A stretch of 30,387 bases of DNA from the IMG/VR virus record IMGVR_UViG_3300030380_005628, positions 3,024 through 33,410 of that record. One strand, given 5' to 3'. Positions within the stretch are counted from its first letter, which is position 1. Each line of letters opens with the position of its first letter. The notes under the pieces are model-generated. The model was not told the origin of the DNA, did no database searches, and was given only the letters and a program-made list of their open reading frames with translations. This DNA is from a virus. This document shows, in pieces, positions 2-26,104 of the stretch. Both the position numbers and the translations under genes were made by a program.

Positions 2-109
2 GAAAATGGTTTTGAGCGACTTGGAATGGGTCGTGAGGACGAATATTTCTGGAAAACAGCAAAAGAACGCGAAAATTCACCTGAAGAGGAAGAAAATGAC
101 TCCAAGTAA
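2..109 (+). CDS. C-terminal end of an unidentified gene, cut by the left edge
   Basis: An open frame enters from the left edge and stops at TAA 107-109, giving 35 visible residues. The tail is very hydrophilic and acidic, with an FWKTAKERENSPEEEEND segment. The start and main domains lie outside the window, so no function can be assigned. In T4-like phages the genes just before gp25 and gp6 are usually baseplate hub or wedge genes, so a baseplate role is plausible from position only. Its last 14 bases overlap the start of the next gene, which suggests translational coupling. This frame, rather than the longer one opening at base 6, is judged to be the coding one here, because the other frame gives an unlikely Lys/Gln-rich stretch before its ATG at 96. 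Confidence 0.55.
   Translation, partial: ENGFERLGMGREDEYFWKTAKERENSPEEEENDSK
86..92 (+). promoter_or_regulatory. Shine-Dalgarno site deciding the start at 96
   Basis: GAGGAAG lies three bases before ATG 96-98, with its GAGG core six bases upstream. It supports the short 53-residue reading of this gene and argues against the in-frame ATG at base 6. Confidence 0.6.
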
Positions 110-257
110 CGACTTTTTAGACAATTTAGCTAACGATCAGCACCAAAAAATGCTTCGTGAGATTGCTAACGATAAAATTACACCAAAAAAGACAGATAAA
201 ATCAAAGAAAGTGAACTTTTTGACCCAGAAAGTGATCCAGAACCACTTTTTGGTTGA
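96..257 (+). CDS. Small hydrophilic protein, 53 residues, unknown function
   Basis: The protein starts MTPSNDFLDNLAND and ends with an acidic DPESDPEPLFG tail; it has no cysteine, membrane segment or signal peptide. I do not recognise the family. The start at 96 is chosen because it has a good Shine-Dalgarno site, overlaps the upstream stop by 14 bases, and avoids a Lys/Gln-rich extension that would arise from reading the upstream gene in the wrong frame. Its stop codon TGA 255-257 touches the late-promoter-like motif before gp25. From its position between an upstream gene and gp25 it may be a small baseplate assembly or accessory protein, but this is inference only. Confidence 0.6.
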   Translation: MTPSNDFLDNLANDQHQKMLREIANDKITPKKTDKIKESELFDPESDPEPLFG

Positions 258-263
258 TAAATA
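256..263 (+). promoter_or_regulatory. T4-type late promoter motif before gp25
   Basis: GATAAATA matches the NATAAATA late promoter described for T4-like cyanophages (T4 consensus TATAAATA). It starts inside the upstream stop codon and ends 21 bases before the GTG start of the gp25 gene. It probably drives gp25, gp6 and the giant gene. Confidence 0.6.
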
Positions 264-284
264 ATACATAATTGCCGTATTGTT

Positions 285-686
285 GTGCCATTAGAGAGGG
301 TTAGTCAAGGTTTTATAGATGTCAGCATGACATTTAAGAAAAACCCATTGACTAATGATTTAATTACGATTAAAGATCGAAATGCAATTGCACGTTCCAT
401 CAAAAATATCGTATTTACCGTTCCTGGAGAGAAAGTTTTTAATGAAAACTTTGGATCAAAGATCTCTGAGTTACTTTTTGACAATATGGACGACTTAACT
501 GCGGCAAACATTAAAGATGAGATTACAAGGTCTATTGAAAATAATGAACCAAGAGTTAGATTGAGAAAAGTTAGGACTTCTCCCAACTTTGAAAACAATC
601 AATTTGATGTGACTATCATATATGACATTATTGGTGTAGATGTACCTGCACAGCAATTAGAATTCGTCTTGCAACCAACAAGGTAA
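285..686 (+). CDS. 25: Baseplate wedge subunit gp25
   Basis: This is a 133-residue protein, almost the length of T4 gp25 (132). It belongs to the GPW/gp25 lysozyme-like fold family, which in contractile tails contacts the first sheath ring and sits in the inner wedge with gp6 and gp53. The family signature is visible: a central PGE at residues 47-49 followed by F-x3-FGS around 53-58 and LLFD just after. The start is GTG at 285, giving MPLERVSQGFIDVSM; no ATG gives a full-length protein and there is no strong Shine-Dalgarno site. It follows a late promoter motif and is directly followed by gp6, the usual T4-like order. Confidence 0.92.
   Translation: MPLERVSQGFIDVSMTFKKNPLTNDLITIKDRNAIARSIKNIVFTVPGEKVFNENFGSKISELLFDNMDDLTAANIKDEITRSIENNEPRVRLRKVRTSPNFENNQFDVTIIYDIIGVDVPAQQLEFVLQPTR
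680..683 (+). promoter_or_regulatory. Ribosome binding site of gp6 overlapping the gp25 end
   Basis: AAGG lies five bases before ATG 689, directly before and touching the gp25 stop codon TAA 684-686. This close packing suggests translational coupling. Confidence 0.5.
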
Positions 687-688
687 AA

Positions 689-2812
689 ATGCCATTAGTT
701 AATTTTTCTAACCTGGATTTTGATCAGGTTAAAACATCACTCAAAGAATACCTAAGATCAAATTCCAACTTCACGGATTATGATTTTGAAGGATCTAACC
801 TTTCATCAATTATTGATGTTCTGGCATATAATACTTACATTACCTCATATAATGCAAACATGGTTGCGAATGAGGTATTCATTGATAGTGCAACTTTAAG
901 GGAAAATGTAGTTGCTTTAGCAAGAAATATAGGATATGTTCCAAGATCAAGAAAAGCAGCAAGAGCAACTGTTAGTTTTACCGTTGATACATCAGAAATT
1001 ACTCCAACTCCAGCAACAATTACTCTAAAAAAAGGTATTGTTGCTACTACAAATAGTCGTTTTGGATCTCAATCCTTTGTATTTTCTATTTTAGATGATA
1101 TAACAGTTCCCGTTTTCAATGAAACGGCAATTTTTAATGACATAATGATTCATGAGGGAGTTCTTTTAGAATCAAATTTTACATATTCTTCCGTAAATCC
1201 AAATCAAAAGTATATTTTACCAAATGCAGGTATTGATACTGAATTAATTAGAGTTTCTGTAAAGAATAGTCAAACTTCTACAGCAGCTGCAAAATATAGT
1301 CTTCAAGATAGTCTTTTTGATATCAATGGCGAATCAAAAGTTTACTATCTACAAGAAATCGAAGATGAAAGATATGAGTTAATTTTTGGAGATAATATTT
1401 TTGGAAAAGCACTAGAGGAAGGAAATTATGTTACAGCAAATTATATTGTCACTAATGGTGATTCTGCAAATGGCATCAGTCAATTCAATTTTGGTGGAAG
1501 AATCTCCTATGTTAGAAATGGAGTTGAGTATAACGTAACTTCCGGTATTTCTCTCTTAAGTCCAGGGTTAATTGCTTCAGGTGGAGAAAACATTGAAACA
1601 ATTGAATCTGTTAAAAAATATTCAACTCGGATATATGCAACTCAAAACAGGGCACTGACTTCAAATGACTATGAAACTTTAATTCCGTCAAGAATTTACC
1701 CAGAAACTGAATCTATTTCTGTTTTCGGTGGAGAAGAGTTAGTTCCTCCCCAATATGGAAAGGTTTTTATCAGCATCAAACCAAGATTTGGTGATTATCT
1801 ACCAAATTTAATTAAAGAGAACATTAGACTGAAACTTAAAAAGTTTTCAGTAGCAGGAATTGTTCCAGAAATATTAGATCTCAAATATTTGTTTATTGAG
1901 AGTGATGCAAAAATATATTACAACTCAAATTCAGTTTCATCTGCAGAGTTAGTATCTACTGTTGTTCAAAATAATGTTAAAAAGTACTCCGAATCAACTG
2001 AGTTAAATAAGTATGGAGCGAGATTCAAGTACAGCAAATTCTTAAAAATAATTGATGATAGTCATGAATCTATAACGTCAAACATTACGACGATTCAAAT
2101 GAGGCGTGATTTAAGAGTATCACTAAATGCATTAGTTGAATATCAAATTGGCTTTGGTAATTCTTTCTATATTAAGAGCATGATTGGATATAATATTAAA
2201 ACTTCTGCCTTTAGAGTAGATGGTATTAACTCTGATGTTTACCTATCAGATTTACCGAATACAAATAGAGAAACTGGAGAATTATTCTTATTCACAGTTC
2301 CATCTATAAACTCTACATCTGCATCAATTTTAAGAAGAAATGTTGGAACGATTAATTATAAGCAAGGTATTTTGACTTTAAATCCTATAAACATTCTAGG
2401 AGGAAAGGTTAAAGATGGTCAAACGATTATCGAAATATCTGGATCTCCAACATCAAATGATGTAATAGGGTTACAAGACCTTTATTTACAACTCGATGTT
2501 GGTAATAGCAATTTTGAAACTGTATTGGATGAAATTGCATCTGGTCTCGATCCATCCGCATCTAACTATATTGTAACATCCAGTTATGCAAATGGCATTT
2601 TAGTTAGACCAGGCGGTAGAGGAAGTGTACCAGTGACCACGACAAGTGCTGCTACAGGCGGCATTACAGGCACTACAGGGACTTCAACACAAACAGTAGG
2701 TAGTGTCGCAGCAGGCACATATTCAGCACCTTCTACATCTTCACCTGCTCCATCCACTGGAGGCGGCTCAGGCGGTTCCAGCGGCGGCGGCGGTGGCGGT
2801 TACGGTTACTAA
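689..2812 (+). CDS. 6: Baseplate wedge subunit gp6
   Basis: This 707-residue protein (T4 gp6 is 660) is of the baseplate J / gp6 family; two copies per wedge form the inner ring of the baseplate. Visible family features are the N-terminal helical region with SLKEYLRSN and DFEGSNLSSIIDVLAYNTY, a typical Y-x-L-x-FGD segment with FGD at residues 233-235, and the J-type stretch around 298-330 (ENIETIESVKKYSTR, then RALTSNDYE). The last 60 or so residues are different: a Thr/Ser/Ala/Gly linker ends in a run of glycines and GYGY. This tail uses GGC codons and is much more GC-rich than the rest. The start has an AAGG site and lies two bases after gp25. Next comes the giant gene in the T4 gene 7 position. 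Confidence 0.92.
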   Translation: MPLVNFSNLDFDQVKTSLKEYLRSNSNFTDYDFEGSNLSSIIDVLAYNTYITSYNANMVANEVFIDSATLRENVVALARNIGYVPRSRKAARATVSFTVDTSEITPTPATITLKKGIVATTNSRFGSQSFVFSILDDITVPVFNETAIFNDIMIHEGVLLESNFTYSSVNPNQKYILPNAGIDTELIRVSVKNSQTSTAAAKYSLQDSLFDINGESKVYYLQEIEDERYELIFGDNIFGKALEEGNYVTANYIVTNGDSANGISQFNFGGRISYVRNGVEYNVTSGISLLSPGLIASGGENIETIESVKKYSTRIYATQNRALTSNDYETLIPSRIYPETESISVFGGEELVPPQYGKVFISIKPRFGDYLPNLIKENIRLKLKKFSVAGIVPEILDLKYLFIESDAKIYYNSNSVSSAELVSTVVQNNVKKYSESTELNKYGARFKYSKFLKIIDDSHESITSNITTIQMRRDLRVSLNALVEYQIGFGNSFYIKSMIGYNIKTSAFRVDGINSDVYLSDLPNTNRETGELFLFTVPSINSTSASILRRNVGTINYKQGILTLNPINILGGKVKDGQTIIEISGSPTSNDVIGLQDLYLQLDVGNSNFETVLDEIASGLDPSASNYIVTSSYANGILVRPGGRGSVPVTTTSAATGGITGTTGTSTQTVGSVAAGTYSAPSTSSPAPSTGGGSGGSSGGGGGGYGY
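2640..2812 (+). repeat. Low-complexity Gly/Ser/Thr tail of gp6
   Basis: This GC-rich in-frame stretch encodes TGG, TTGTST, SAPSTSSPAPS and a terminal GGG-rich run ending GYGY. Glycine is mainly GGC here, while GGA and GGT dominate elsewhere. It is probably a flexible linker or a recently expanded repeat. Confidence 0.7.
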
Positions 2813-2836
2813 TACGATTACTAATAGTATCATAAA

Positions 2837-5800
2837 ATGTCAGAAAAGAGAGTTCAGTTTAACAACATAGTACAAAATCAACTCCCCTCCTATGTGAGAG
2901 AGGAGTTCCCTCTTATTTCTGAATTTTTAAAACAATATTATCAGGCACAAGAATATCAGGGTGCTCCTATTGATTTAATTGAAAATATCGATAGGTATAT
3001 TAAATTAGATAATACAACAAATTTAACTTATTCAACTACATTACTGGAAGATATCTCATTTAATGACTCTACAATAAAAGTTGATCTTGCAGTTTCACCA
3101 ACAGGGACCAAAGGTTTTCCTGATACCTATGGACTAATTCAAATTAATGATGAAATTATTACCTACACAGGTAAAACAAATTCCTCCTTTACTGGATGCG
3201 TAAGGGGATTTGTAGGAATTACCTCATACATACCGCAAGGAAATAATGATAATTTAGAATTTACATCTACATCTTCTCAAGAACATGAAAAAGGTGATGA
3301 AATTAAAAATCTTAGTTGTTTATTTTTAAAAGAATTTTTAAAGAAAACAAAGAAACAATATTTACCATTACTTGATGAAAGATCTTTATCAGAAGATCTG
3401 AATCAAAATTTGTTTATAAAGCAGTCTAAAGATTTTTATCTTAGTAGAGGAACAGATAGATCTTTTGAGATTTTATTCAGAGCTTTGTACAATGAAGATG
3501 TAACTGTTGTAAAACCAAGAGATTTCTTATTTACTCCATCCAACTCAGATTATAGAGTTACAAGTGATCTAGTTGTTGAGTCAGTTGTTGGCAATCCTTT
3601 AGATTTAGAACAAGCAACTTTATTCCAAGATGCTTATGGATATAATTCTAATATCACAAAAGCATATGCACCAATCACTGGGGTAGAAAAATTACAGCAG
3701 GTAGGATCGGGAAAAAGTTTTTATAAGTTTAGTCTTGATGCAGGATATGATAGAGATGTTATTGTTGATGGTATCATATATGGGGCATTTTCTGTTCACC
3801 CAAAAACAAAATTAATTGGACAAGTTGGATCTGGAGTTTCAATTCTTAATGTAGATTCCACTGTAGGTTTTGGTACAACCGGAGAATTGTCTGTTACTTA
3901 CAATGACACCACCACAGGAATTGTATCTTATACATCAAAGACGTTAACAGAATTTTTAAATTGCACTAATGTAACAGGAACGATTGTTGATGGTGAAGAT
4001 GTTGGAATTAATACTTATGCATTTGGTAGATCATCTAAAAATCAAAATGAGGTAATTAGAGTAAAAATCAATTCAGTTCTTAGTAATGTAGAAATTCCCG
4101 ATAACACTAAAGAGTATAGAGATGGAGATTCTGCAAGGATTAGAACTTTAGGAAAAGATAAGACTGATTCAATTTTTAAAAATTGGTTTTATAATTATTC
4201 AACCACACATAGAGTTGAACTTGTCAAATTAATTGACTCCTCTGATAGTAGTTACGAACTTAAATTATTTAAGGATCATTATTTTAAAGTTAATGATACA
4301 GTCGTCTTAACTGATAATAGTGGAAATAGAAAAGACTCAGTAATATATCAAGTTACTTCACCATCATCCATTTCTGTAAAAGGTCAAGGTAATTTAGATT
4401 CAAATAGATCGTACACCCTAAAAAGAAATATTTTAAGAGGTAATGCGACTAATTTTGCATCTGCAGGTTTAAGTCAGGCAAATGTGCAAGCTGTATTTGA
4501 CGGAGATGAAAATTTTCTTGTAACTTCTCCATCAATTCCTTCATATTTTACTGCGGCGCTAAACACAGATGATAGATCTACAACTTTTTCTGAAACCGTT
4601 CCAGCAGGAACAGAAGTAGAAATTTCAAGATTAGGAAAACATAGTTTCTACACTGGAGATCCTGTTTATTATAGTGGTGAAGTAATCACCGAAAAATTTA
4701 TTGCTGATGATAATACTATTCAAACAAGAACAGGAAGAGGAACTTCTTTAGGAGCAAACTTCCCTGATGGTTTATATTTTGTAAAAAGAGTTTCAGATAC
4801 AACAGTAAAATTTGCTAAGAGTAGAAGTGATTTATTTAATAACAGATTTGTTGAAGTTGAAAGTGAAACAAAAGTAATTAATAATAAAGTAACTCCATAT
4901 GAATTTAAGGATAAAACTTTAAAATCTCAAAAGATTGTTAGAGAAATTCCAAAACGTGCTCAACATACTGGCAAACTTACTCCTACAAAACCTGGATTTA
5001 CTGGAGTATTAATTAACGGAGTAGAAATTTTAAATTATAAAGGTAATGATGTTATAAACTACGGAAAAATTGAAGAAATTGAAGTTCTGTCTCCTGGCCA
5101 AAATTTTGATATTATTGATCCCCCATTAGTTCTTATTGAAGATTCAGTTGGAACTGGTGCTACAGGAAACGCTGCAGTTCTTGGAAATCTGAATCAAATT
5201 AGAGTTATTGATCCTGGATTTGATTATACAGAAACTCCAGTCATAACAATCACTGGTGGTAATGGAAGTGGTGCATCTGCACAACCAAATATGAAACTGA
5301 TTAATCATTCGGTTTCATTCTTTGCGGAACCAGCATCAAATAGAGTTGGACTTGGTGCTACTGTATCTACTATTGGATTCGGAACATTCCATAAGTTTAG
5401 AAATACTGAACAAGTAATATACAGGACAAACGGACAGGATGGTATTGGTGGATTAACGACCGATGCAAAATATCATGTATCAGTAGAGGACAACGAAACT
5501 GTTAAACTCTTTAATACTGTTGGAGATGTTTTAGCAGGAATTAATACTATCGTATTAACTTCGTTCGGTAATGGATCACATAGTTTACAAAGCGTTAATA
5601 AGAAATCTGTAGTTGAGTCTATTTCTGTAATATCAGGCGGATCTGGATATGAAAATAAAAAGAGATCAGTTGCCATTGCCGGAGTTAGTACATCTCAAAA
5701 TACAATCACGATCAAAAATCATGATTATCTGTCTGGAGAAAAAGTAAAGTATACTGCAGGCACCTCTACAATTGAAGGTTTAAGTGATGGATCAGAATAT

Positions 5801-8800
5801 TATGTAATTAAACTTGACGATGATAATTTTAGATTAGCAAATATAGGTCTTACAACATCTTCTAGAACTTTCTTCTATGATACAAATCAGTTTGTCGAAT
5901 TGAAATCGACCGGTGCTGGAACTCATTCCTTTAACTATCCAGAAATTTCTGTTACTATCGCTGGGCCCATTGGTATATCCTCCATCGGAGAGGAAACTTT
6001 CCAAGCACAATTGCAACCAATATTCCGTGGACAAGTAACTTCTGTCAATCTTTCAAATAATGGTGTCGGATATGGTTCTTCAGAAGTATTAAATTTAGAT
6101 AGACCACCTTCAGTCACTTTAGTCCCCGGAACTGAAGCACAGATGCAACCCATCATTAATGATGGAAAACTTCAGGAAGTATTGGTAATTAATTCTGGCA
6201 GAAGATTTAATTCTCCTCCAGATCTAGTTTTAGAAGGTGAGGGAGTTGGTGCAGTTATTGTTCCTATTCTAACAGATGGGACTATCACTTCAGTTAAAGT
6301 TTTAGAATCTGGAACTGGATATAACCAATTAACTACAACCATTAGTGTTGTTTTCCCTGGATCAGGTGCAACGTTAAAAGCAAAACTTCAAAATTGGAGA
6401 GTTAATCTAACACAAAAATATCTTTCTTCGTGGAAAGATGATGATGGTGTAATTACAAATGGTGTAAATGAAGATTTTGAACTACAATATGCTCACATTT
6501 ATGCTCCAAGAAAATTAAGACAATTAATTTATTCGGTTGACCAGGATGGAAAAGTTCTTTATGGGGAAACTGATCTTAAAATAAACGTCAATACTAGACA
6601 AGAAGAACCATCAATACAACATTCACCGATTATTGGTTGGTCATATGACGGGCATCCGATTTATGGACCATACGGATATTCAACAAGATCTGGTGGTGCT
6701 GTAACTCAAATGAAGAGTGGGTATGTTGAAGATGCTCCTAAAGAAAATAGACCTCCACTTACCATATGGCCAAGCGGTTTCTTTATAGAAGACTTTACTT
6801 ATAAAAATTTACCTGATGAGGATGTTCTTGACGAAAATAATGGAAGACATTGTGTCACTCCAGATTTCCCAAATGGATCTTACGTATACTTTGCTACAAT
6901 AGATACGGTAGCAGATACCCAATCACCATATGCAGGATTTAGAAGACCAGTTTTCCCATATTTGGTAGGAGAAAACTTCCATGCAAAACCAAATGAATTT
7001 AATTTTGCTAAAACTTCAAATCAGGATAATTACAATTTCAATGCCTCTGGTTATGTAAAAAATACCACGCCATTTAATTATTTTGATGGTAACGAAAGAT
7101 ACGAGTATCTTTCCTTACCAAATGATTTAAAGCAATCTGTAGAAATTACTAATACCAAAAAAGGATCAATTCAGTCAGTTGGAATTTTGACTGGTGGCGA
7201 CAATTATAAGGTAAATGACCCCATTGTATTCAATGAATCAAACACAGGTGGTACAGGCGTTTCTGCGAGGGTCTCAAGAGTTCTTGGTAGACCTGTAGAA
7301 AGTGTAAGTCTTGCAACTAGTTCTGTTTCTAACGTTGAATTTTATCCAGATGGAAAGGGAAAATATCTCTTATTTGCAGACAATCCACATCAATTCCAAA
7401 ATTCAGATATCATTACAATATCTGGAGTTTCAACAACTTCTACAGATTTAGAAGGAATTTATTCTGCTGGAATCGGAACGAATGTATACACACTAACCGG
7501 GGTAGGAACAACTGCTGTAGAAACTGGGACTGTAGCACAAACAGGTGTTACAACATTCTTCAATGTATCAGGAAATTTAAATTACCCTAACATCAGGGAA
7601 AATGATATTCTTCAAATCGGAACAGAACAAGTAAAAGTTTTAAATGTTGATAACAGACAATCAAGACTTAGAGTTCTAAGATCTTTCAATGGAGTTGTTG
7701 GAGTATCTCATACAGTTGGAACTGGAGCTACTGTAACTCAAAGAAAAATATCAATCTCTGCAGGATTTAAAACTGACTTTGCATACAAATTAAATAGACA
7801 AATTTACTTCAATCCATCTGAAACTGTTGGTTTAGGTAGCACTGCTGGTGTGGGAATTGGAAGCACAATTTTCTTCTCAAATCCAGGAACTGGTGCTACA
7901 AGTTCAATTATTCCAACTAAAACTTTGCTTATTAGAGATCATGATTTGAACACTGGTGATCTTGTGACATATTCTGCTAATGGTGGAAGTGGAATTATTG
8001 TTCAAGACGAGACCAATGTTGGAGTTGGAACGACACTTGCAGACGGAACTCAATTATTTGTTGCTAAAGTAACAGATTATCTGATTGGACTTTCAACCGT
8101 AAGAGTTGGTCTTGGAACCACGGGAACTTTTGTTGGTGTAGGAACAACAGCATCTACAACTTTAGCATTCTTGAGTGTAGGATCTGGAGTAGTTCATAGT
8201 TTGAAAACAAATTATGATGTAATCACTGGAAATGTTAGTAGAAATAGAGTAACTGTTTCTACTGGACAATCTCATGAAGTTGTCATCAATCATGATATAT
8301 TCTTAGACATAAATCCTGGAGTATCTTCAGCATTTAATATAAGATACAATGACTTTAATCGTAAAGTAATTGTTGATCCACAATCTTACACCTCAACGGG
8401 TATTAATACATCCACTGGTGTTATTACTATTACTAATCACCAATTTACTAAAGGTCAAAAAATTGTTTATACTTCAGGAGATGTTGCTGAAGGATTAGTA
8501 AATGAAAAAATTTATTATATTGGTATAATCGATAATAATAGATTCAAATTAACAGAAACTTATGATGATGCAATAAGAAAAATACCAGCTGGAGTTGGTA
8601 TTGCAAGCACTGGTGGTGGTGGAACTATCAATCCAATTAATCCACCATTAAAACTGTACAAAAACTCTACTGTTGATTTTATTTTAACAGATTCTTCTTT
8701 ATCATATACTCAACAAGCAACTAATTATTCTGCGTTTGAGTTTAACTTATATGCGGATAAGAATTTCACTAACATATACACTGGTAAAGTTAGTGATGGT

Positions 8801-11800
8801 AAAAATTATGATGTAACTAAAACTGGAAGACCCGGTATTGATGGAACTGCAAAAGTTTCTTTGGTTGTAAATGAAAATACTCCAGATGAACTCTATTATA
8901 GATTAGATCCTGTTTATGAGAGTGACTTACCCACCACTAAATCTGAAGTTAATGTGGATGGGGATGTTTTACAAAATAATACCATTGAAATTAAAAAAAG
9001 TCTTTACAATGGAAAACATAAAGTATCAACAGCATCTACAAACTTCTTTGAATTTACGATTGGAATAACTCCAGAAAAATCTTCTTATATTTCATCTACT
9101 TCAGCTGCTATTATCAATTATGAAACTGATTGCACCCACACAAAAGGTCCTATCAGTCAACTTGAAATCATAAGTGGTGGTAAAGCATATTATTCTCTGC
9201 CAGGAATTACAACCGTTTCCTCAGTTAATGGAACTGGAGCGATTTTAGAAGTAGATAGTAACACCATTGGTCAAATCAATAAAACTAGAATCAAAGATAT
9301 TGGTTTTGATTTCCCTGTTGATAAAACTTTAAAACCATCAATTACTCTACCAAATATAATTAAAATTGAATCCCTTAAGTCATTTGAATCCATTGGAATT
9401 ACTTCCAGTGGTAGAGGATATTCAACTGCACCTAAACTTTTAATATTTGATGGAAAAACAAAAGAAAGAGTCACTGATATTGATTTAAAATATGATCTTG
9501 GTGACGAGAAGGTAACTATTCTTAAAAATACTAAAGGAATCAGCAATACCTTACCAACAATCATACCAACAGCAAATACAAATGGCGTTGGTATTAGCAC
9601 CATTGGATTTAATACAACAACTAATCAAGTCACAGTGACTTTAGCAGTTGGATTTAGTACTGCTGAAAGTTTCCCAATCGCAGTTGGCGATAAAGTTCTA
9701 GTAGAAAATATTAGTGTTGGTGTTGGTTCCACAGGAAGAGGATTTAACTCCTCCGGATATAACTTCAAATTATTCCCTATTATTGATGTAGATCCAAATA
9801 TTGGTGGAGTTGGAGCAACTGTTTCTTATAGTCTTGAGGGATTATTTGATTCTAGTAGAGGAGAATTTGTTGGCGAGTTTGACAAATTTAATTCTGGGGG
9901 AAGAATTATTCCTGAGAAACTTTTCCCAACCTTTGATATTGCATTAAAGGACAATAATTTTATTGATGGCGAAGTAGTTGAGTCTGACACTACTTCAGGA
10001 ATAGTTGAAAGTTGGGATAGAAAAACTGGAGATCTTAGAGTTTCGACTGATAGAGATTTCTTAATTAATGAAGTTATCAGAGGAACTGCATCAAAAACTC
10101 AAGGAATTGCTTCTTCTATCACAACTTTTGAATCTTCAGTTGATACTGGTTCATCATCAAAAGTTTTGAAAGGATCTAGAACAGATTCCGGATTCTTAAA
10201 TGCAAATATGCAGAGAGTTCAGGATAGTTTCTACTATCAGAACTTCTCATATTCACTTAGATCAAGAGTTGATTATGATACCTGGAATGATGTTGTAAGT
10301 ACTACCAACCATACCGCAGGTTTCAAAAAATTTGCTGATTATCAACTTGAAACTCCAGCATCATTCTCCGAAGTAACTTCAAATTCGATGGCAGTAGGAC
10401 TATCGACTGAGTTATCTTATTTTACAGTTGTCAACGATCTTTATGGAGTAGCTGATTTAAATTGTGTTTATAATTTTGATATTGTTGCTGAAAATTCTTT
10501 AGACATTGCTGGTTCTGTATATTCTGATGAAGTAATTTTTGCAAGTAGAATTTTGCAAGATTACTTTGAATCATTTGGAAATAGGGCTGTTCAAATTGAC
10601 GATATGAGTGGATTATTTAACAGTAATCCCAGAACATCTAGATTTGCTTTAATTGATAGTTTTAATATTAATAATAGTAGAGCAATGAAGTATTTCATCT
10701 ACTTTAAAGATGAAAGATTTATTGGTGAAAGACAATTTAATATAGTCACCATGGTTCAAGATGGAACATTTGCATATATGAACCAATATGCAAGAACGGA
10801 TACCGTTGGTGAACTTGGATCATTTGATATGACTATCTCAGGAAATAATGGTTCTTTACAGTTCTTCCCCATCAAACCTGATGTCAATGATTATCAAGTT
10901 GTTAATATTGCATATCATCTCGATGATAATGTAACTGGAGTTGGAAGTACAGTATCCTTTGATAATGTAGTCGAGATACAAACGGATAGTGTTGATTGCA
11001 CTAGTGGTCGTACAACAATTGTCTCTGTTGCAAACACTATTAGATCTATGAAGATCTATTCTTGTTTATCTGATTTAACTAATAATGAATATCAATATGA
11101 TGAATTGAATGTAGTTCATGATGGTAGTGAAATTTATGTATCAGAATTTGGTAGATTAACTACAAATGGAACTGGTCCGTTTGTAGGAACTGGATTTGGA
11201 ACTTTCTATCCATTCTTTGATGGATCTACAATTAAGATTGATTTTATCCCTGTTGCTGGAGCAGCAGTTACTGCAAATACAATGCAGATTGGAATTACTT
11301 CCGAATCTATTGTTGGATTTGGAACAACAGAGATGAAACATGCTTTCCTTGATGCACAAACCACAACGATTGCTGCATCTGGAAGCCCCGGAATTACTAC
11401 AGTTGCATCTTATCTTCCAGAATATGATGCTGCATATTTCATGGTTCAAATTTCTGATACTGGAAGTAATCATAATCATCATGAAATGAGAGAAATGCTT
11501 GTTCTTGATGATTTCTCATCTACTGATGTGGAATCAACAACATATATTCAAGAATTCGGTATGGTAGAAACTGAAACTACTTTACCATACGTGACTGGAC
11601 TTGGAACGTTTGGTGCAAGAGTAAATTCTGCTAATGGAGTATCATTAACGTTTACTCCAAATCCAGGTATTGGCGTAACAGTCAAAACCTTCATGAATGC
11701 ACTTAGAATTGAAGATGATAGTAAAGATCAAATTGATTTTGATAATGGCTTGATTGTTTCACATTATGCAAGATATGAAGGAAGACAAAATGCTGTTAGA

Positions 11801-14800
11801 AAAACATTTGGACTTAATCATAAAGGTGCTCCAATCTTTGAAAAATATTTCGTAGGAAATGACAGCGACATTGTTAGCATTGATGCTAATACGATTAAGA
11901 TTCCAAATCACTTCTATGTTACTGGTGAAGCAATTCGATATGATAGAAATGGTGGAATTACATCATCTATTGGTATTGCAACTACAAGTTTTGCTGGACT
12001 TGGTAATACAGAATTCCTTCCAGTCAATCAAGATATATTTGTAATTAAAATTACTGATGAAACAATTAAACTTGCATCAACTGCAGAAAATGCTCTCAAG
12101 AGAATTCCCATTGCTATTGAACTTGAAAGTGTTGGTATTGGAACCTCTCACAGATTTGTAGCAACAAATCAAGATGCTAAGTGCTTACTTGCTATTGATA
12201 ATTTAATTCAATCACCTATAGTATCTACTGCTCAAACTCAAACTCTTGCAGATAGAGTATCGACTCTTGATACTACCATATCTGTGAGTGGCGTTACGTC
12301 ATTCTTTGGTGGAGATTTGATAAAAATGGGCAATGAAGTCATGAAGATCACTGGTATTGGTGTTGGTGGTACAAACATATTTACTGTTATCCGTGGTCAT
12401 GTTGGAAGTAATATTTCAGTGGGAGCAACTGGTGATATAATCACCAAAGTTGTAGGCAACTACATTATTAATGATAATGTTCTGAACTTCGTTGAACCCC
12501 CATTTGGTGGTCAACCAATTGGAAGTGTTACTAACAGGCCAGACGAAAGAGATTGGACTGGTATTACAACTGGTTCTACTTTCCAGGGAAGAATGTTTAT
12601 GAGATCTGGAACACCAGACACAACGGAAGACACTTATTCCGGAAACGTACTATTCGATAGTCTTTCTGATCAATTTGATGGTACAACTCCAACCTATGTT
12701 CTTACCTCTGCAGGGTCATCTACAATTTCGGGTATATCTTCCGGAAATGGAATTATCTTAGTCAATGATATTTTCCAAGAACCTGGAAATAGTTCAGACT
12801 ATACTATGGGAGAGAGTGCTGGTATTACGACCATTACATTTACCGGAACAGCATCATCAACAACAACTGATGCTAATACTGCCGGTCTTCCTCTTGGTGG
12901 AGTTTTACTTTCAGTAGGGTCTACAGCAGGGTTGGGATATCAACCTTTAGTTTCTGCAGGTGCAACTGTCAGTGTTTCTGGACTTGGAACTATTTCATTG
13001 GTTAGTGTAGGAAATACTGGATCTGGATATAGAGCACCAAATAAGTATGAATTCCTTGCAAATATTGCATCTCCGGTTGGAGTGGGATCAACTGAAATTT
13101 ACATAGAAAATACTGGAAGTGTTCTAAATCTGGTTAGTATCCTAAACAGTGGATCTAATTGCACAATTGGTGTCGGAACCGATTTTACACCGGTTACAAT
13201 TGTTTCCGCCGCATCTACTTTTGTTAGAATTGGAACTGGAAATACAATTTCTACTGCAATTTCTCAAGGAACTAAAACTAAAATTATTATTAATAATCCT
13301 CAAATTGGATTTGTAAATGTAAGTGTTGGTGAAAGTGCAACGGGAATTTCCACAATGACGCATGTTGGTTTTGCGACTATCATGACGGGAACTGGTAATA
13401 TCTCAACTTCAGTTACAATAACAAATCCAGGTTCTGGATATACCACTCTGATTAAACCATTTGCAGAAATTGATGATCCACTTTCCTACTCAAATATTCC
13501 ATTAAATTATGTTGGAACTGCTCAATCTGGACTGAATGCAACTGTAGATATTGTTGTTGGTAATGGGTCAAGTATTATTGATTTCTCAATTAATAATACA
13601 GGTGTTGGTTATGCTCCTGGAGAAATTCTTACTATTCCAATTGGTGGTTTGGCTGGAATTCCTACTTCGGGAACATTTAGTAGATTTGAATTGGATGTTC
13701 AAAAAGTATTCTCTGATGAATTTACTGGTTGGACAATTGGAACTTTACAAACTCTTGATGACCCATCTATCAATTTTGATGGTAGCACCAAAGCATTTAA
13801 TATTACTCTTGGTGGTAATCAAATTTCAATTAGATCCAATAGAGGATCTAAGATTGATGTAGAACAAGTTCTTATAGTGTTTATTAATGATATTTTACAA
13901 GAACCTGGTCAAGGTTATCAATTCCCAGGCGGTAGTGTTATTACTTTCGCTGAAGCACCAAAACCTGGTGATTCATGTAAGATTATTTTCTATAAGGGAA
14001 GTGGAGATGATCAAGATGTTATCTTGAGGGAAATTATTGAAACTGTGAAGAAAGGTGATGAAGTTACCCTTGGATATGATCCAAGTCGTGGCCAAGATAA
14101 GTTCTTACAAGAAAATGCAAGGACTGTAACAGCAGTTAATACGACTGACCAAGTTCAAACATTCCCATATTTTGGTCCAGGTAATACTGCAGATGAAACA
14201 TTGTTTAGACCACTTGTATGGTGTAGACAAACTGAGGACAAAATTATTGATGAAAAACGTGTCTCTAAAGATAGGGAACTATATGAACCACTTATCTATC
14301 CATATGCATATATAACAAAATCTGTTGGTATTGGTTCCACTCACATATATGTTGATAGAGTGAGACCACTATTCAATGGAAGAAATGAAAATGACACTAG
14401 TCTTTTATTCCAGAACAAAGTTAAATTTGTTTCTCAAGTCGTACAAGTAGGAGCATCTGCTACTGCAATTGTAAGTGCTGCAGGAACTGTATCATCTCTT
14501 GTTATATCCGATGGTGGTTCTGGATATCTATCTGCCCCTACTGTTAGTATTGCTGGAACCGCACAGCAAGATGCCACATTGGGATTAACCACTGCTACTG
14601 CTACTGCAACTATTAATGCAGCAGGAGCTGTTTCATCTTTAACTCTAACTAATGTTGGAACTGGTTATACATTTGACAAACCACCAGGTGTTCTGATTTC
14701 TTCTCCTGGATATAGTGAGGAAGAAAATTTAATCACAAACTTCCTTGGTGATTCTGGAATTATTGTTGGATTTGGAACAACGACTGTAAGTGGAGTTACC

Positions 14801-15316
14801 ACTCAATTTATCTTTGACCTTCATATTCCATATGGATCTAAGTTAAGAGAATCAACAATCGTTGGAACTGCGGTAACTCTGAGTTCTTTGAGTAAGAATG
14901 ATTACTTTATTGTTTCTAATTCTAATGTTGGATCTTTGACCACTTCCATTACCTCAATTGATCATCAAGATGGTTCCACTGCTGGTATTGGTAAATCGTT
15001 TGTTGACAACGTATATGTTGTTCAAAATGCACATAACGTTGAAAGAAATATCATCGGAATTGGAGTTTCGGTATTCAGAAGAGTATTTGTAAATGTTGAT
15101 GATTCTTTCGCATTTGGAACTGCTGGAACTATCTCCACAACCACTCTCGCAGGTTATGGTGATTATAGTTGGGGTAAATTTGTAATGGCATCGAGAGCAG
15201 GATTAACCTCTCATATTGCATATACATCTGATGGGATAATCGGAATTAATACCTCTATGAGGGTTGAAAGATCTCAACAATTGAAGTCCAAAAATTATAT
15301 CCCATCCAATACATAA
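2837..15316 (+). CDS. Giant modular baseplate/virion protein with YHYH-like domain (gene 7 position)
   Basis: One uninterrupted frame of 4159 residues fills about 40% of the window. The N-terminus (residues 1-60, with EEFPLISEFLKQYY and QGAPIDLIENIDRYIK) and the following region (FIKQSKDFYLSRGTDRSFEI) look like the conserved head of the large wedge protein found after gp6 in T4-like cyanophages. A YHYH-like domain spans about 1255-1400 (IIGWSYDGHPIYGPYGY at 1265-1281; NGRHCVTPDFPNGSYVYF at 1335-1352). The rest is built from recurring modules listed separately, and the C-terminus has a GDYSWGKF motif and ends LKSKNYIPSNT. I see no signal peptide, membrane segment or enzyme signature. Its position between gp6 and gp8 suggests the role of T4 gp7, the wedge organiser (1032 residues in T4), but there is no direct sequence match. 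ATG 2837 lacks a clear Shine-Dalgarno site. Similar proteins are sometimes labelled VrlC-like or YHYH domain proteins. Confidence 0.85.
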   Translation: MSEKRVQFNNIVQNQLPSYVREEFPLISEFLKQYYQAQEYQGAPIDLIENIDRYIKLDNTTNLTYSTTLLEDISFNDSTIKVDLAVSPTGTKGFPDTYGLIQINDEIITYTGKTNSSFTGCVRGFVGITSYIPQGNNDNLEFTSTSSQEHEKGDEIKNLSCLFLKEFLKKTKKQYLPLLDERSLSEDLNQNLFIKQSKDFYLSRGTDRSFEILFRALYNEDVTVVKPRDFLFTPSNSDYRVTSDLVVESVVGNPLDLEQATLFQDAYGYNSNITKAYAPITGVEKLQQVGSGKSFYKFSLDAGYDRDVIVDGIIYGAFSVHPKTKLIGQVGSGVSILNVDSTVGFGTTGELSVTYNDTTTGIVSYTSKTLTEFLNCTNVTGTIVDGEDVGINTYAFGRSSKNQNEVIRVKINSVLSNVEIPDNTKEYRDGDSARIRTLGKDKTDSIFKNWFYNYSTTHRVELVKLIDSSDSSYELKLFKDHYFKVNDTVVLTDNSGNRKDSVIYQVTSPSSISVKGQGNLDSNRSYTLKRNILRGNATNFASAGLSQANVQAVFDGDENFLVTSPSIPSYFTAALNTDDRSTTFSETVPAGTEVEISRLGKHSFYTGDPVYYSGEVITEKFIADDNTIQTRTGRGTSLGANFPDGLYFVKRVSDTTVKFAKSRSDLFNNRFVEVESETKVINNKVTPYEFKDKTLKSQKIVREIPKRAQHTGKLTPTKPGFTGVLINGVEILNYKGNDVINYGKIEEIEVLSPGQNFDIIDPPLVLIEDSVGTGATGNAAVLGNLNQIRVIDPGFDYTETPVITITGGNGSGASAQPNMKLINHSVSFFAEPASNRVGLGATVSTIGFGTFHKFRNTEQVIYRTNGQDGIGGLTTDAKYHVSVEDNETVKLFNTVGDVLAGINTIVLTSFGNGSHSLQSVNKKSVVESISVISGGSGYENKKRSVAIAGVSTSQNTITIKNHDYLSGEKVKYTAGTSTIEGLSDGSEYYVIKLDDDNFRLANIGLTTSSRTFFYDTNQFVELKSTGAGTHSFNYPEISVTIAGPIGISSIGEETFQAQLQPIFRGQVTSVNLSNNGVGYGSSEVLNLDRPPSVTLVPGTEAQMQPIINDGKLQEVLVINSGRRFNSPPDLVLEGEGVGAVIVPILTDGTITSVKVLESGTGYNQLTTTISVVFPGSGATLKAKLQNWRVNLTQKYLSSWKDDDGVITNGVNEDFELQYAHIYAPRKLRQLIYSVDQDGKVLYGETDLKINVNTRQEEPSIQHSPIIGWSYDGHPIYGPYGYSTRSGGAVTQMKSGYVEDAPKENRPPLTIWPSGFFIEDFTYKNLPDEDVLDENNGRHCVTPDFPNGSYVYFATIDTVADTQSPYAGFRRPVFPYLVGENFHAKPNEFNFAKTSNQDNYNFNASGYVKNTTPFNYFDGNERYEYLSLPNDLKQSVEITNTKKGSIQSVGILTGGDNYKVNDPIVFNESNTGGTGVSARVSRVLGRPVESVSLATSSVSNVEFYPDGKGKYLLFADNPHQFQNSDIITISGVSTTSTDLEGIYSAGIGTNVYTLTGVGTTAVETGTVAQTGVTTFFNVSGNLNYPNIRENDILQIGTEQVKVLNVDNRQSRLRVLRSFNGVVGVSHTVGTGATVTQRKISISAGFKTDFAYKLNRQIYFNPSETVGLGSTAGVGIGSTIFFSNPGTGATSSIIPTKTLLIRDHDLNTGDLVTYSANGGSGIIVQDETNVGVGTTLADGTQLFVAKVTDYLIGLSTVRVGLGTTGTFVGVGTTASTTLAFLSVGSGVVHSLKTNYDVITGNVSRNRVTVSTGQSHEVVINHDIFLDINPGVSSAFNIRYNDFNRKVIVDPQSYTSTGINTSTGVITITNHQFTKGQKIVYTSGDVAEGLVNEKIYYIGIIDNNRFKLTETYDDAIRKIPAGVGIASTGGGGTINPINPPLKLYKNSTVDFILTDSSLSYTQQATNYSAFEFNLYADKNFTNIYTGKVSDGKNYDVTKTGRPGIDGTAKVSLVVNENTPDELYYRLDPVYESDLPTTKSEVNVDGDVLQNNTIEIKKSLYNGKHKVSTASTNFFEFTIGITPEKSSYISSTSAAIINYETDCTHTKGPISQLEIISGGKAYYSLPGITTVSSVNGTGAILEVDSNTIGQINKTRIKDIGFDFPVDKTLKPSITLPNIIKIESLKSFESIGITSSGRGYSTAPKLLIFDGKTKERVTDIDLKYDLGDEKVTILKNTKGISNTLPTIIPTANTNGVGISTIGFNTTTNQVTVTLAVGFSTAESFPIAVGDKVLVENISVGVGSTGRGFNSSGYNFKLFPIIDVDPNIGGVGATVSYSLEGLFDSSRGEFVGEFDKFNSGGRIIPEKLFPTFDIALKDNNFIDGEVVESDTTSGIVESWDRKTGDLRVSTDRDFLINEVIRGTASKTQGIASSITTFESSVDTGSSSKVLKGSRTDSGFLNANMQRVQDSFYYQNFSYSLRSRVDYDTWNDVVSTTNHTAGFKKFADYQLETPASFSEVTSNSMAVGLSTELSYFTVVNDLYGVADLNCVYNFDIVAENSLDIAGSVYSDEVIFASRILQDYFESFGNRAVQIDDMSGLFNSNPRTSRFALIDSFNINNSRAMKYFIYFKDERFIGERQFNIVTMVQDGTFAYMNQYARTDTVGELGSFDMTISGNNGSLQFFPIKPDVNDYQVVNIAYHLDDNVTGVGSTVSFDNVVEIQTDSVDCTSGRTTIVSVANTIRSMKIYSCLSDLTNNEYQYDELNVVHDGSEIYVSEFGRLTTNGTGPFVGTGFGTFYPFFDGSTIKIDFIPVAGAAVTANTMQIGITSESIVGFGTTEMKHAFLDAQTTTIAASGSPGITTVASYLPEYDAAYFMVQISDTGSNHNHHEMREMLVLDDFSSTDVESTTYIQEFGMVETETTLPYVTGLGTFGARVNSANGVSLTFTPNPGIGVTVKTFMNALRIEDDSKDQIDFDNGLIVSHYARYEGRQNAVRKTFGLNHKGAPIFEKYFVGNDSDIVSIDANTIKIPNHFYVTGEAIRYDRNGGITSSIGIATTSFAGLGNTEFLPVNQDIFVIKITDETIKLASTAENALKRIPIAIELESVGIGTSHRFVATNQDAKCLLAIDNLIQSPIVSTAQTQTLADRVSTLDTTISVSGVTSFFGGDLIKMGNEVMKITGIGVGGTNIFTVIRGHVGSNISVGATGDIITKVVGNYIINDNVLNFVEPPFGGQPIGSVTNRPDERDWTGITTGSTFQGRMFMRSGTPDTTEDTYSGNVLFDSLSDQFDGTTPTYVLTSAGSSTISGISSGNGIILVNDIFQEPGNSSDYTMGESAGITTITFTGTASSTTTDANTAGLPLGGVLLSVGSTAGLGYQPLVSAGATVSVSGLGTISLVSVGNTGSGYRAPNKYEFLANIASPVGVGSTEIYIENTGSVLNLVSILNSGSNCTIGVGTDFTPVTIVSAASTFVRIGTGNTISTAISQGTKTKIIINNPQIGFVNVSVGESATGISTMTHVGFATIMTGTGNISTSVTITNPGSGYTTLIKPFAEIDDPLSYSNIPLNYVGTAQSGLNATVDIVVGNGSSIIDFSINNTGVGYAPGEILTIPIGGLAGIPTSGTFSRFELDVQKVFSDEFTGWTIGTLQTLDDPSINFDGSTKAFNITLGGNQISIRSNRGSKIDVEQVLIVFINDILQEPGQGYQFPGGSVITFAEAPKPGDSCKIIFYKGSGDDQDVILREIIETVKKGDEVTLGYDPSRGQDKFLQENARTVTAVNTTDQVQTFPYFGPGNTADETLFRPLVWCRQTEDKIIDEKRVSKDRELYEPLIYPYAYITKSVGIGSTHIYVDRVRPLFNGRNENDTSLLFQNKVKFVSQVVQVGASATAIVSAAGTVSSLVISDGGSGYLSAPTVSIAGTAQQDATLGLTTATATATINAAGAVSSLTLTNVGTGYTFDKPPGVLISSPGYSEEENLITNFLGDSGIIVGFGTTTVSGVTTQFIFDLHIPYGSKLRESTIVGTAVTLSSLSKNDYFIVSNSNVGSLTTSITSIDHQDGSTAGIGKSFVDNVYVVQNAHNVERNIIGIGVSVFRRVFVNVDDSFAFGTAGTISTTTLAGYGDYSWGKFVMASRAGLTSHIAYTSDGIIGINTSMRVERSQQLKSKNYIPSNT
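3036..3232 (+). repeat. 'RG' module, giant protein copy 1
   Basis: About 65 residues with the pattern L-x-I...TI-x-V...FP...GLI-x-INDEIITYTG...F-x-GC-x-RG. Related copies occur at about 7541-7745 and 12249-12452 in the same gene, at 23199-23447 in the DUF4815 gene and at 28316-28540 in gp15. Confidence 0.6.
4618..5757 (+). repeat. NH-xxx-TGE-xxxY modules 1-3 of the giant protein
   Basis: Three degenerate copies start near 4618 (GKHSFYTGDPVYYSG), 5376 (FHKFRNTEQVIYRTNG) and 5698 (TIKNHDYLSGEKVKYTAG). Each is followed by an L/D-G-x-x-YYV segment and a short strand ending in K/R-F/L-A. Further copies lie at 7916, 8414 and 11884. Confidence 0.55.
5083..6390 (+). repeat. GxGY module cluster in the giant protein
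   Basis: Several copies of a short motif, hydrophobic-x-V-x-x-x-G-x-G-Y followed by P-x-V-x-I and a Gly/Ala-rich turn, occur here. Examples are IRVIDPGFDYTETPVITITG, ISVISGGSGYENK, VNLSNNGVGYGSS, VLVINSGRRFNSPPDLVLEG and VKVLESGTGYNQL. It is probably a beta-rich repeat. Confidence 0.6.
6600..7040 (+). other. YHYH-like domain within the giant protein
   Basis: Residues about 1255-1400 carry the core of the YHYH family (Pfam PF14240): GWSYDGHPIYGPYGY, then NGRHCVTPDFPNGSYVYF about 60 residues later, with a FRRPVFPYLVG segment after it. The literal YHYH tetrapeptide that names the family is not seen upstream of it; the nearest candidate is LQYAHIYAPRKLRQ. The biochemical role of the family is unknown. 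Confidence 0.7.
10631..11717 (+). repeat. Three tandem degenerate domains in the giant protein
   Basis: Three consecutive domains of roughly 95-120 residues (about 10639-10921, 11001-11300 and 11352-11714) share a pattern: a hydrophobic MKYFIYF/AYFMVQIS strand, an acidic helix or loop, V-x-DG or VLDD, then Y-x-x-E/Q-F/Y-A/G, a GT/GS-F step, and F-x-P near the end. Aligned examples are YVSEFGRLTTNG with FGTFYPFF, and YIQEFGMVETET with LGTFGARV. Confidence 0.5.
12640..14010 (+). repeat. Pair of QEPG modules in the giant protein
   Basis: Two copies of a module of about 90 residues contain FD-x-x-S-x-FDG...G-I-x-V...NDI-F/L-QEPG...Y...IT-F. The QEPG strands begin at 12749 (GIILVNDIFQEPG) and 13868 (VLIVFINDILQEPGQGY). 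The second copy is more complete and is followed by APKPGDSCKIIFYKG. Motifs of this type are common in phage tail and fibre proteins. Confidence 0.55.
14450..14735 (+). repeat. GxGY module pair near the giant protein C-terminus
   Basis: Two neighbouring copies, SSLVISDGGSGYLSAPTVSI and SSLTLTNVGTGYTFDKPPGV, are separated by an Ala/Thr-rich spacer (ATATATINAAG). They are the least diverged copies in this gene. Looser copies lie at about 12981-13650. Confidence 0.6.
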
Positions 15317-15349: not shown

Positions 15350-16900
15350 ATGGCTGCAATTATAACTGATCAAATTAGAATATTGAATGCAAAGAATTTT
15401 GTATCTGGAGTTAGTTCCAGTTCTAATTCATACTATTCTTTTATTGGTCTACCAAATCCATCAGACTATCAAAGTGACTGGGACTCAAATCCTCCCGCTC
15501 CTAAGGATAATTTTTCTGAAGAGAATGATTACTGGGATACCATGATCGCTCTGAAGAAAATAAATTCTTCCGATGTTCGGCAGGTAATTCCCAAGAGAAA
15601 TTGGGCTTCTGGCACCACTTATGACATGTATAGACATGATTATAGTGTGACCAAAACTGCGGCAGTTTCTGGTGCCACTAATCTTTATTCTGCATTTTAT
15701 TATGTAATGAATAGTGATTTCAAAGTTTATATTTGCCTTCAAAATGGGTCAGAACCAAACAATCCAAATGGTAAACCGTCACTTGATGAACCAACATTCA
15801 CAGATTTAGAACCAAGATCTGCTGGTTCTAGTGGTGATGGGTATATTTGGAAATATCTTTATACAATTAAACCTAATGAGGTTGTTAAATTTGAGTCTAC
15901 TGATTTTATACCAGTTCCTGCCAATTGGGAATCCTCAACTGATAACTCAGTTGTTAGAGATAATGCTGTAGACGGATCTATTAAAATTGTAACTGTAACT
16001 AACGCTGGAGTTGGTTTAGGAACTGCTAATCAAACTTATACGAGAGTTCCAATTGAAGGTGATGGTTCCGGAGCAGAGTGTACCGTAACTGTTGGTGCTG
16101 ATTCTAAAGTAAGTAGTGTAACAGTTTCAAATCAAGGATCTGGATATACTTTTGGAAGTTTGAATTTAATTTCTGGTGGAGTTCCAACCGGAACTACAAT
16201 TCCCACTTTTGATGTGATCATGTCTCCTCAGGGTGGACATGGAAAAGATATTTACAGAGAACTTGGAGCATTCAATGTTCTGCTATATTCTAGAATTGAA
16301 AATGATAATGAGAATCCAGATTTTGTAACTGGTAATCAAATTGCAAGAGTTGGTGTTGTAGAAAATCCCGAAGTATCGACTGGGACAATTTTAAGTTCAG
16401 ATAAAGCAAGTGCTCTTAATGCACTAAGACTGACTGGAACAGGATATAGTTCTGCTTCATTTACTGCAGATGCATACTTTACTCAAACAGTTGCTACTGG
16501 CACTACTGCAGTTGGTAGAGTTGTAAATTATGATGCAACAACAGGAGTTTTAAAATATTGGCAAGATAGATCTCTTGCAGGATTTAACACCGTTGGAACT
16601 GCTTTGACAAATCCAACATATGGTTTTGGTATAGAATCATTTACTGCTTCACCGTCACCAGGTGGAAGTTTAACTATTGTTCCATCAAGCGGATCTAATT
16701 TAGCAATTGATACTTCCTTTACTGGTATCTCAACCATAATAAATAATAAAACATATTATCTTGGTCAGTCATTTACCAGTGGAGTTGCAGGTCCTGAAGT
16801 TAAAAAACATGCAGGAAATATTATCTACGTTGATAACAGACCTTCAATTACCAGATCATCTAACCAAAAAGAAGATATCAAAATCATTTTGCAGTTCTAA
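15350..16900 (+). CDS. 8: Baseplate wedge subunit gp8
   Basis: This 516-residue protein matches T4 gp8 (334 residues), a wedge protein that binds gp7 and gp10 in the baseplate periphery. Recognisable conserved pieces are VIPKRNW at residues 79-85 (T4 has VIPRRDW), GDGYIWKYLYTI at 162-173 (T4 GDGYVWEYLFEI), and the C-terminal NIIYVDNRPSI at 490-500 followed by a strand ending in LQF. The extra length lies in the middle: residues about 208-285 carry two GxGY-type modules, and about 370-420 carry an SGA-type module. This suggests insertion of shared phage modules into a conserved gp8 core. Its location straight after the gene 7 position and before the DUF4815 gene fits the wedge operon. Confidence 0.9.
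   Translation: MAAIITDQIRILNAKNFVSGVSSSSNSYYSFIGLPNPSDYQSDWDSNPPAPKDNFSEENDYWDTMIALKKINSSDVRQVIPKRNWASGTTYDMYRHDYSVTKTAAVSGATNLYSAFYYVMNSDFKVYICLQNGSEPNNPNGKPSLDEPTFTDLEPRSAGSSGDGYIWKYLYTIKPNEVVKFESTDFIPVPANWESSTDNSVVRDNAVDGSIKIVTVTNAGVGLGTANQTYTRVPIEGDGSGAECTVTVGADSKVSSVTVSNQGSGYTFGSLNLISGGVPTGTTIPTFDVIMSPQGGHGKDIYRELGAFNVLLYSRIENDNENPDFVTGNQIARVGVVENPEVSTGTILSSDKASALNALRLTGTGYSSASFTADAYFTQTVATGTTAVGRVVNYDATTGVLKYWQDRSLAGFNTVGTALTNPTYGFGIESFTASPSPGGSLTIVPSSGSNLAIDTSFTGISTIINNKTYYLGQSFTSGVAGPEVKKHAGNIIYVDNRPSITRSSNQKEDIKIILQF
15973..16200 (+). repeat. GxGY modules inserted in gp8
   Basis: Two copies occur: IKIVTVTNAGVGLGTANQTY (degenerate) and VSSVTVSNQGSGYTFGSLN, joined by a GDGSGAECTVTV strand. 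T4 gp8 has no equivalent that I recall. Confidence 0.55.
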
Positions 16901-26100: not shown

Positions 26101-26104
26101 AAAT

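Follow-up and report, generated by a model that had tools for sequence, protein, structure and literature searches.

The window, a stretch of 30,387 nucleotides from IMG/VR virus record IMGVR_UViG_3300030380_005628, a viral contig of 33,410 bases, contains a single open reading frame of 4,159 codons (2837-15316, + strand) in the gene position of the baseplate wedge protein gp7 of phage T4. This raises the question of whether the giant protein is the gp7 of this phage, and, if so, how the scaffold is laid out in so long a chain. The gene is preceded by gp25 (285-686) and gp6 (689-2812) and followed by gp8 (15350-16900; PF09215) and a VrlC-like protein (P0004, 16907-24460; DUF4815, phrog_358), all on the + strand, and the order gp25-gp6-giant-gp8 puts it in the gp7 slot. 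The initial annotation of one intact frame about four times as long as T4 gp7, lying between gp6 and gp8, was borne out: the frame starts with ATG, has no internal stop and is 4.03 times the length of T4 gp7 (1,032 aa), with a calculated mass of 449 kDa. The phage is a marine cyanomyophage. By DNA, its closest named relative is Synechococcus phage S-SM2, at 77% identity across 97% of the initial 24 kb. The PHROG 2885 profile, 'baseplate wedge subunit', is matched in full length (positions 5-4178 of 4179, 4,193 bits). At the other end of the window, an open frame (29053-30387) continues past the last nucleotide; its product is glutamate-rich and probably coiled-coil, and about five spaced PE(I/V/P)(K/R)YY(D/E) repeats can be read in it by eye.

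In about 30 independent IMG/VR contigs the frame is uninterrupted up to where the compared DNA stops, some 3,620 aa, and pN/pS lies between 0.12 and 0.35 in each 260-codon bin. These results show that the gene is real and constrained along its full length. An assembly artefact is ruled out by the independent contigs, and a chance or spurious frame by the low pN/pS together with the 180-528 stops found in the remaining five frames across 2837-15316.

A phmmer search of the PDB with the entire giant protein gave nothing useful, and the PF23786 Baseplate_wedge profile stayed under its cut-off with the whole protein, while the N-terminus alone reached the cut-off and 10 of 11 relatives were positive. 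A profile built from 11 N-termini had two T4-type gp7 sequences as its sole significant PDB matches (6e-6 and 4e-5), and one built from three compact relatives alone matched T4 gp7 at residues 645-759 (4e-6). In the reverse direction, residues 641-1032 of T4 gp7, used alone as the query, found the giant protein at 5e-6, and a T4 gp7-family HMM had it as the sole match among the 11 window proteins (1e-7). T4 gp7 residues 1-640, which form its N-terminal exterior domains, matched neither the giant protein nor any of 13 relatives. The giant protein is therefore a gp7 family member without the T4-type (Straboviridae) architecture. The homology is visible only with profiles or with the C-terminal part of T4 gp7 alone, and thus the whole-protein phmmer search was uninformative.

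Three landmarks of the giant protein correspond, in unchanged order, to T4 gp7 residues 645-892 (all coordinates within the gene are on the + strand). Landmark 1 is an N-terminal helix-turn-helix (aa 1-69, 2837-3043), the counterpart of T4 gp7 residues ~645-690 and also of the core-bundle motif of XM1 gp17 (XM1 anatomy: PMC10457771). Landmark 2 is a core segment with FIKQSKDFYLSRGTDRSFEILFRALYNEDVTVV (aa 156-261, 3302-3619), the counterpart of T4 residues 726-759. The shared motif reads DFYLSRGTDRSFEILFRALYNEDVTVV in the giant protein and DFYSTKGIEASYKFLFKVLYNEEVEIE in T4 gp7. Landmark 3 is an FSY/HPAG element (aa 2456-2512, 10202-10372) with the sequence YQNFSYSLRSRVDYDTWNDVVSTTNHTAGFKKF, the counterpart of T4 residues 865-892. 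A profile of this HPAG element, built from eight relatives, recovered it in all six held-out relatives at E<1e-15. Its top two among 177,635 PDB sequences were T4-type gp7 (residues 865-892), a match that is weak alone (E 0.065-0.085). By these scores, the element is strong inside the gp7 family and weak to T4 by itself, and its match to T4 gp7, taken alone, is only suggestive. When T4 gp6, gp7, gp8 and gp10 were scanned with all three landmark profiles, gp7 alone was significant, and hhalign of the three landmarks against a six-member T4 gp7 family returned probabilities of 94.8, 96.5 and 82.0%. Further, a 587-aa protein of Desulfovibrio phage 7757 is reached from T4 gp7 by tblastn (residues 645-888, E 1e-3) and has all the landmarks, a combination that makes it a natural bridge.

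The fold was examined in a compact 549-aa relative (L188), which we modeled with AF2 from 25 sequences. The model is weak overall, with a pLDDT of 51, and good only at residues ~100-220. In a Foldseek search against 350,542 PDB chains, three matched at E<=0.001, and all were T4-type gp7 (9f4a, 5iv5 and 5hx2; E 1e-14 to 8e-11); diffocin and Streptomyces CIS baseplate chains appeared only below threshold. In the structural alignments with T4 gp7, TM-scores are low and the rmsd is large; what they match is local folds and not the domain arrangement. The sequence tests and the fold test of L188 returned T4 gp7 only, in agreement with the wedge-organiser identity proposed at the outset. We conclude that the giant protein is very probably the true gp7 of this phage, with a small scaffold that it has in common with T4 gp7 and the compact gp7s and that beta modules have expanded at three points.

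The first of these growth points separates landmarks 1 and 2, the second separates landmarks 2 and 3, and the third lies downstream of landmark 3; they hold 87, 2,195 and 1,648 residues, respectively, and contain beta modules plus a YHYH domain. Insert I1 carries an RGF-type module (aa 86-131, 3092-3229) that is missing in compact gp7s. Insert I2 (aa 262-2455, 3620-10201) holds beta modules and the YHYH domain, and the C-terminal extension (aa 2513-4159, 10373-15313) has one HGxxVxY-type and six GYP-type modules. The initial annotation had pictured a large array grafted onto gp7. A large added array is indeed present, but it is not simply attached to the end: about 2,200 aa interrupt the scaffold, and another 1,650 or so are appended. 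The landmark HMMs were applied to 14 named phages as well as to the IMG/VR loci. The order helix-turn-helix, core segment, HPAG was found in each of the 136 locus ORFs holding all three, and in all 70 cases with YHYH this domain lay between the second and third landmarks. These two landmarks are 84 to 2,809 residues apart across the surveyed gp7s, and in compact relatives the landmarks are close together, with as few as 84-90 residues linking landmarks 2 and 3. In T4 gp7 ~640 residues precede the core, and in giant gp7 none do, so one scaffold was probably enlarged independently, at different points, in the T4 and cyanophage proteins.

The giant protein contains 14 GYP-type, six HGxxVxY-type and two RGF-type module copies. 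The second RGF-type module follows early in I2 (aa 336-383, 3842-3985). A cluster within 4631-6376 comprises HGxxVxY copies at aa 599-679, 849-913 and 958-1028 and GYP copies at aa 739-815, 919-951 and 1062-1180, and two more HGxxVxY modules occupy aa 1699-1772 and 1864-1928 (7931-8620). The description of a protein made mostly of shared beta modules and a YHYH-like domain was right about both components, but the share it gave them is not borne out: recognised modules and YHYH together cover about one third of the length, and about two thirds of the chain falls outside any assigned module. Over 14 relatives, the number of GYP modules tracks gp7 length (r=0.92), which fits growth by module accumulation. 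Most of 30 long relatives either lack a stretch at aa ~3381-3560 (12977-13516) or cannot be aligned there, which marks it as a hotspot of module gain or loss. GYP-type modules also occur in gp8 and gp14, and the RGF type also in the VrlC-like protein. In the gp14-like protein of the window (26093-27550), three GYP-type modules in common with gp7 lie in the C-terminal half. Sharing of GYP modules between gp14 and gp7 has likely led to module-bearing proteins being misnamed as Hc2.

The YHYH domain (PF14240; aa 1206-1426, 6452-7114) scored 76.5 bits against a gathering cut-off of 25 (E=3e-21, profile positions 90-184), and 78.8 bits in a second scoring. Its model has a pLDDT of 87. With this model, Foldseek matched viral YHYH-type proteins only and found no match among solved structures, hence none to any solved enzyme. 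An alignment search with the domain found relatives in genome contigs; a single-sequence search found none. Four MAG contigs (L261, L262, L297 and L298, binned as Planctomycetaceae, Euryarchaeota and Dehalococcoidia) have gp7-like YHYH ORFs of 1,129-1,147 aa, open throughout the covered stretch, and are probably cyanophage contigs in these MAGs. As the gp7 copies have lost much of the cellular histidine cluster (see below), we speak of a YHYH-related domain and do not assume an enzymatic role.

Giant gp7 shares 75.5% identity with its S-SM2 counterpart, compared with 79.6% for gp6 and 79.0% for VrlC, so the three proteins evolve at about equal pace. No hypervariable stretch was found over aa 1-3380 in the long relatives. 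Both results argue for an architectural role and not for a receptor-binding tip, and the second rules out a hypervariable receptor-binding protein.

XM1 gp17, T6SS TssG and P2 gpI have a wedge scaffold role like that of T4 gp7 (PMC10457771, PMC6300606). By homology with T4, XM1 and TssG, the scaffold of giant gp7 together with two gp6 would form the core bundle and trifurcation in each of the six wedges. The 2,195-residue insert would loop outward and return. Since compact relatives bridge landmarks 2 and 3 with fewer than 100 residues, both of its ends are probably adjacent at the wedge core, which makes the earlier question of how such a protein packs into the baseplate concrete. The 1,648-residue C-terminal array would hang off as a free tail. 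Six copies would contribute ~2.7 MDa to the baseplate, mostly peripheral, and we infer that the arrays lie outside it. They would be largely structural, possibly binding surfaces via YHYH, rather than forming a hypervariable receptor-binding tip. More tentatively, and on balance less likely than not, gp7 may be an evolvable chassis, in which contractile-tailed phages extend a ~250-residue scaffold at fixed growth points to anywhere from 480 to 6,800 residues, the beta-module loop and tail of the cyanomyophages making an outer baseplate layer that assumes tasks performed in T4 by the N-terminal domains of gp7 and by separate peripheral proteins.

Identification of the giant protein as gp7 conflicts with published views. 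According to one report, cyano- and pelagimyophages have no gp7 and use VrlC in its stead (PMC7029224), and Sullivan et al. (2010) assigned gp7 to the non-cyanophage core only, the gp7 clusters being too divergent (PMC3037559). On this account, the slot would be occupied by a giant that is unrelated to gp7 and serves as a receptor-binding or fibre protein, and the literature does link YHYH with host recognition. We regard this account as very improbable: in the window, the T4 gp7-family HMM matches the giant and not VrlC, and the PDB sequence and fold tests return gp7 only. VrlC as gp7 is ruled out, as the VrlC-like protein is without any gp7 landmark. Moreover, I899_gp055 of Pelagibacter phage HTVC008M (L341:33435-36485), a 1,016-aa protein between gp6 and gp8, has all three landmarks, and VrlC of that phage has none. 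By its landmarks and position, I899_gp055 is the gp7 of HTVC008M; its annotation as 'head closure Hc2' is a misnaming that probably arose because its modules are common to gp14. The landmark and HMM tests, the lack of landmarks in VrlC and the presence of all three in I899_gp055 therefore contradict the published statements. As for virions, T4-GC969 was detected in those of S-SM1 by mass spectrometry (Sullivan et al., PMC3037559), and Syn19_088 (6,483 aa, gp7 slot) is labelled GC 969. This is the best available evidence for giant gp7s in virions, and it concerns an orthologue of the window protein.

Two other alternatives accept the gp7 identity and differ on what the chain does. For tail-associated YHYH domains, a metal-dependent hydrolase activity relying on a histidine triad plus an aspartate has been predicted (PMC7824862), in which case YHYH could turn gp7 into a hydrolase attacking the cell envelope. 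Consistent with this, H1262, D1271, D1319 and D1332 are invariant among the gp7 copies and H1220 is kept in 87%. However, the gp7 copies have lost the histidines at 1205, 1219 and 1221, positions that are 95% His in stand-alone cellular YHYH proteins, and position 1334 is His in 21% of them versus 93% of the cellular proteins. With three to four of the six cellular histidines lost, much of the His cluster of the stand-alone type is gone, which weakens the published prediction for these copies, and the fold search gives no solved enzyme. A hydrolase is thus unlikely, and a binding or structural role appears more likely. It is also conceivable that scaffold and arrays act as separate proteins, produced by cleavage of the long chain once assembly is complete. 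The great length and modularity of the chain and the gain or loss of modules near aa 3381-3560 would suit such processing, but a cut in I2 would split the scaffold, which itself spans aa 1-2512, and purifying selection shows no unevenness from one end of the protein to the other. We consider cleavage improbable.

Cyanomyophages and pelagimyophages are very common marine viruses, and they do possess gp7, a point that sequence settles where the literature is wrong or silent. Homology clustering missed it because the few hundred residues of the scaffold are spread over chains of up to 6,800; the three search landmarks uncover gp7 even where a phage annotation gives it no name or a wrong one. Within the literature and collections searched, the demonstration of this scattered scaffold and the correction of the 'gp7 absent' view are the new content. 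The giant gp7 itself is a further member of an already known family, annotated as gp7 in S-SM2 and others.

Among relatives, the protein in the gp7 slot ranges from 503 to 6,817 aa. It is short in Mendera (503), BUCT-ZZ01 (607) and Ochrobactrum phage OC (631 aa), and of intermediate length in S-CRM01 (1,454) and S-CAM1 (3,032 aa). In most named cyanophages its length is 4,067-6,817 aa: Bellamy 4,067, S-SM2 4,156, P-TIM68 4,307, P-HM1 4,446, P-SSM2 5,195 and, longest of all, S-RIM8 6,395, Syn19 6,483 and ACG-2014d 6,817 aa. A length of 4,159 aa is therefore an ordinary size in this family.

Among known systems, XM1 gp17 (242 aa) is small beside giant gp7, and XM1 gp17, TssG and P2 gpI gave no significant sequence match to it. 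T4 gp7 (1,032 aa; PDB 5IV5, 5HX2) has the same gene order and the same order of the three landmarks. Its core is preceded by ~640 residues, landmarks 2 and 3 are ~105 residues apart, and its tail is short, whereas giant gp7 has nothing before the core, ~2,195 residues between these landmarks and ~1,648 after them. The compact gp7s of Stenotrophomonas phage Mendera (503 aa), Ochrobactrum phage OC (631 aa) and Desulfovibrio phage 7757 (587 aa), as well as compact IMG/VR loci such as L188 and L194, also have the three landmarks in the same order; unlike giant gp7, the compact gp7s are without YHYH and have few or no modules. The giant 'virion structural protein' of Syn19, S-RIM8 and ACG-2014d (6,395-6,817 aa) resembles giant gp7 in landmarks, YHYH and slot, but its insert between landmarks 1 and 2 is ~590 aa long compared with ~90, and no HGxxVxY modules were detected in it. 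In Syn19 and S-RIM8 (L006, L007), two genes stand between the giant and gp8, namely gp9 and one for another 'baseplate wedge subunit' (about 1,400-1,550 aa), while both are missing there in the window phage and the S-SM2 lineage. S-SM2 gp7 (SSM2_097, 4,156 aa; gp7, baseplate wedge initiator) agrees with giant gp7 in slot, length and modules; the two align colinearly over their full length, with 75.5% identity and only 13 gap columns, and differ only by sequence divergence.
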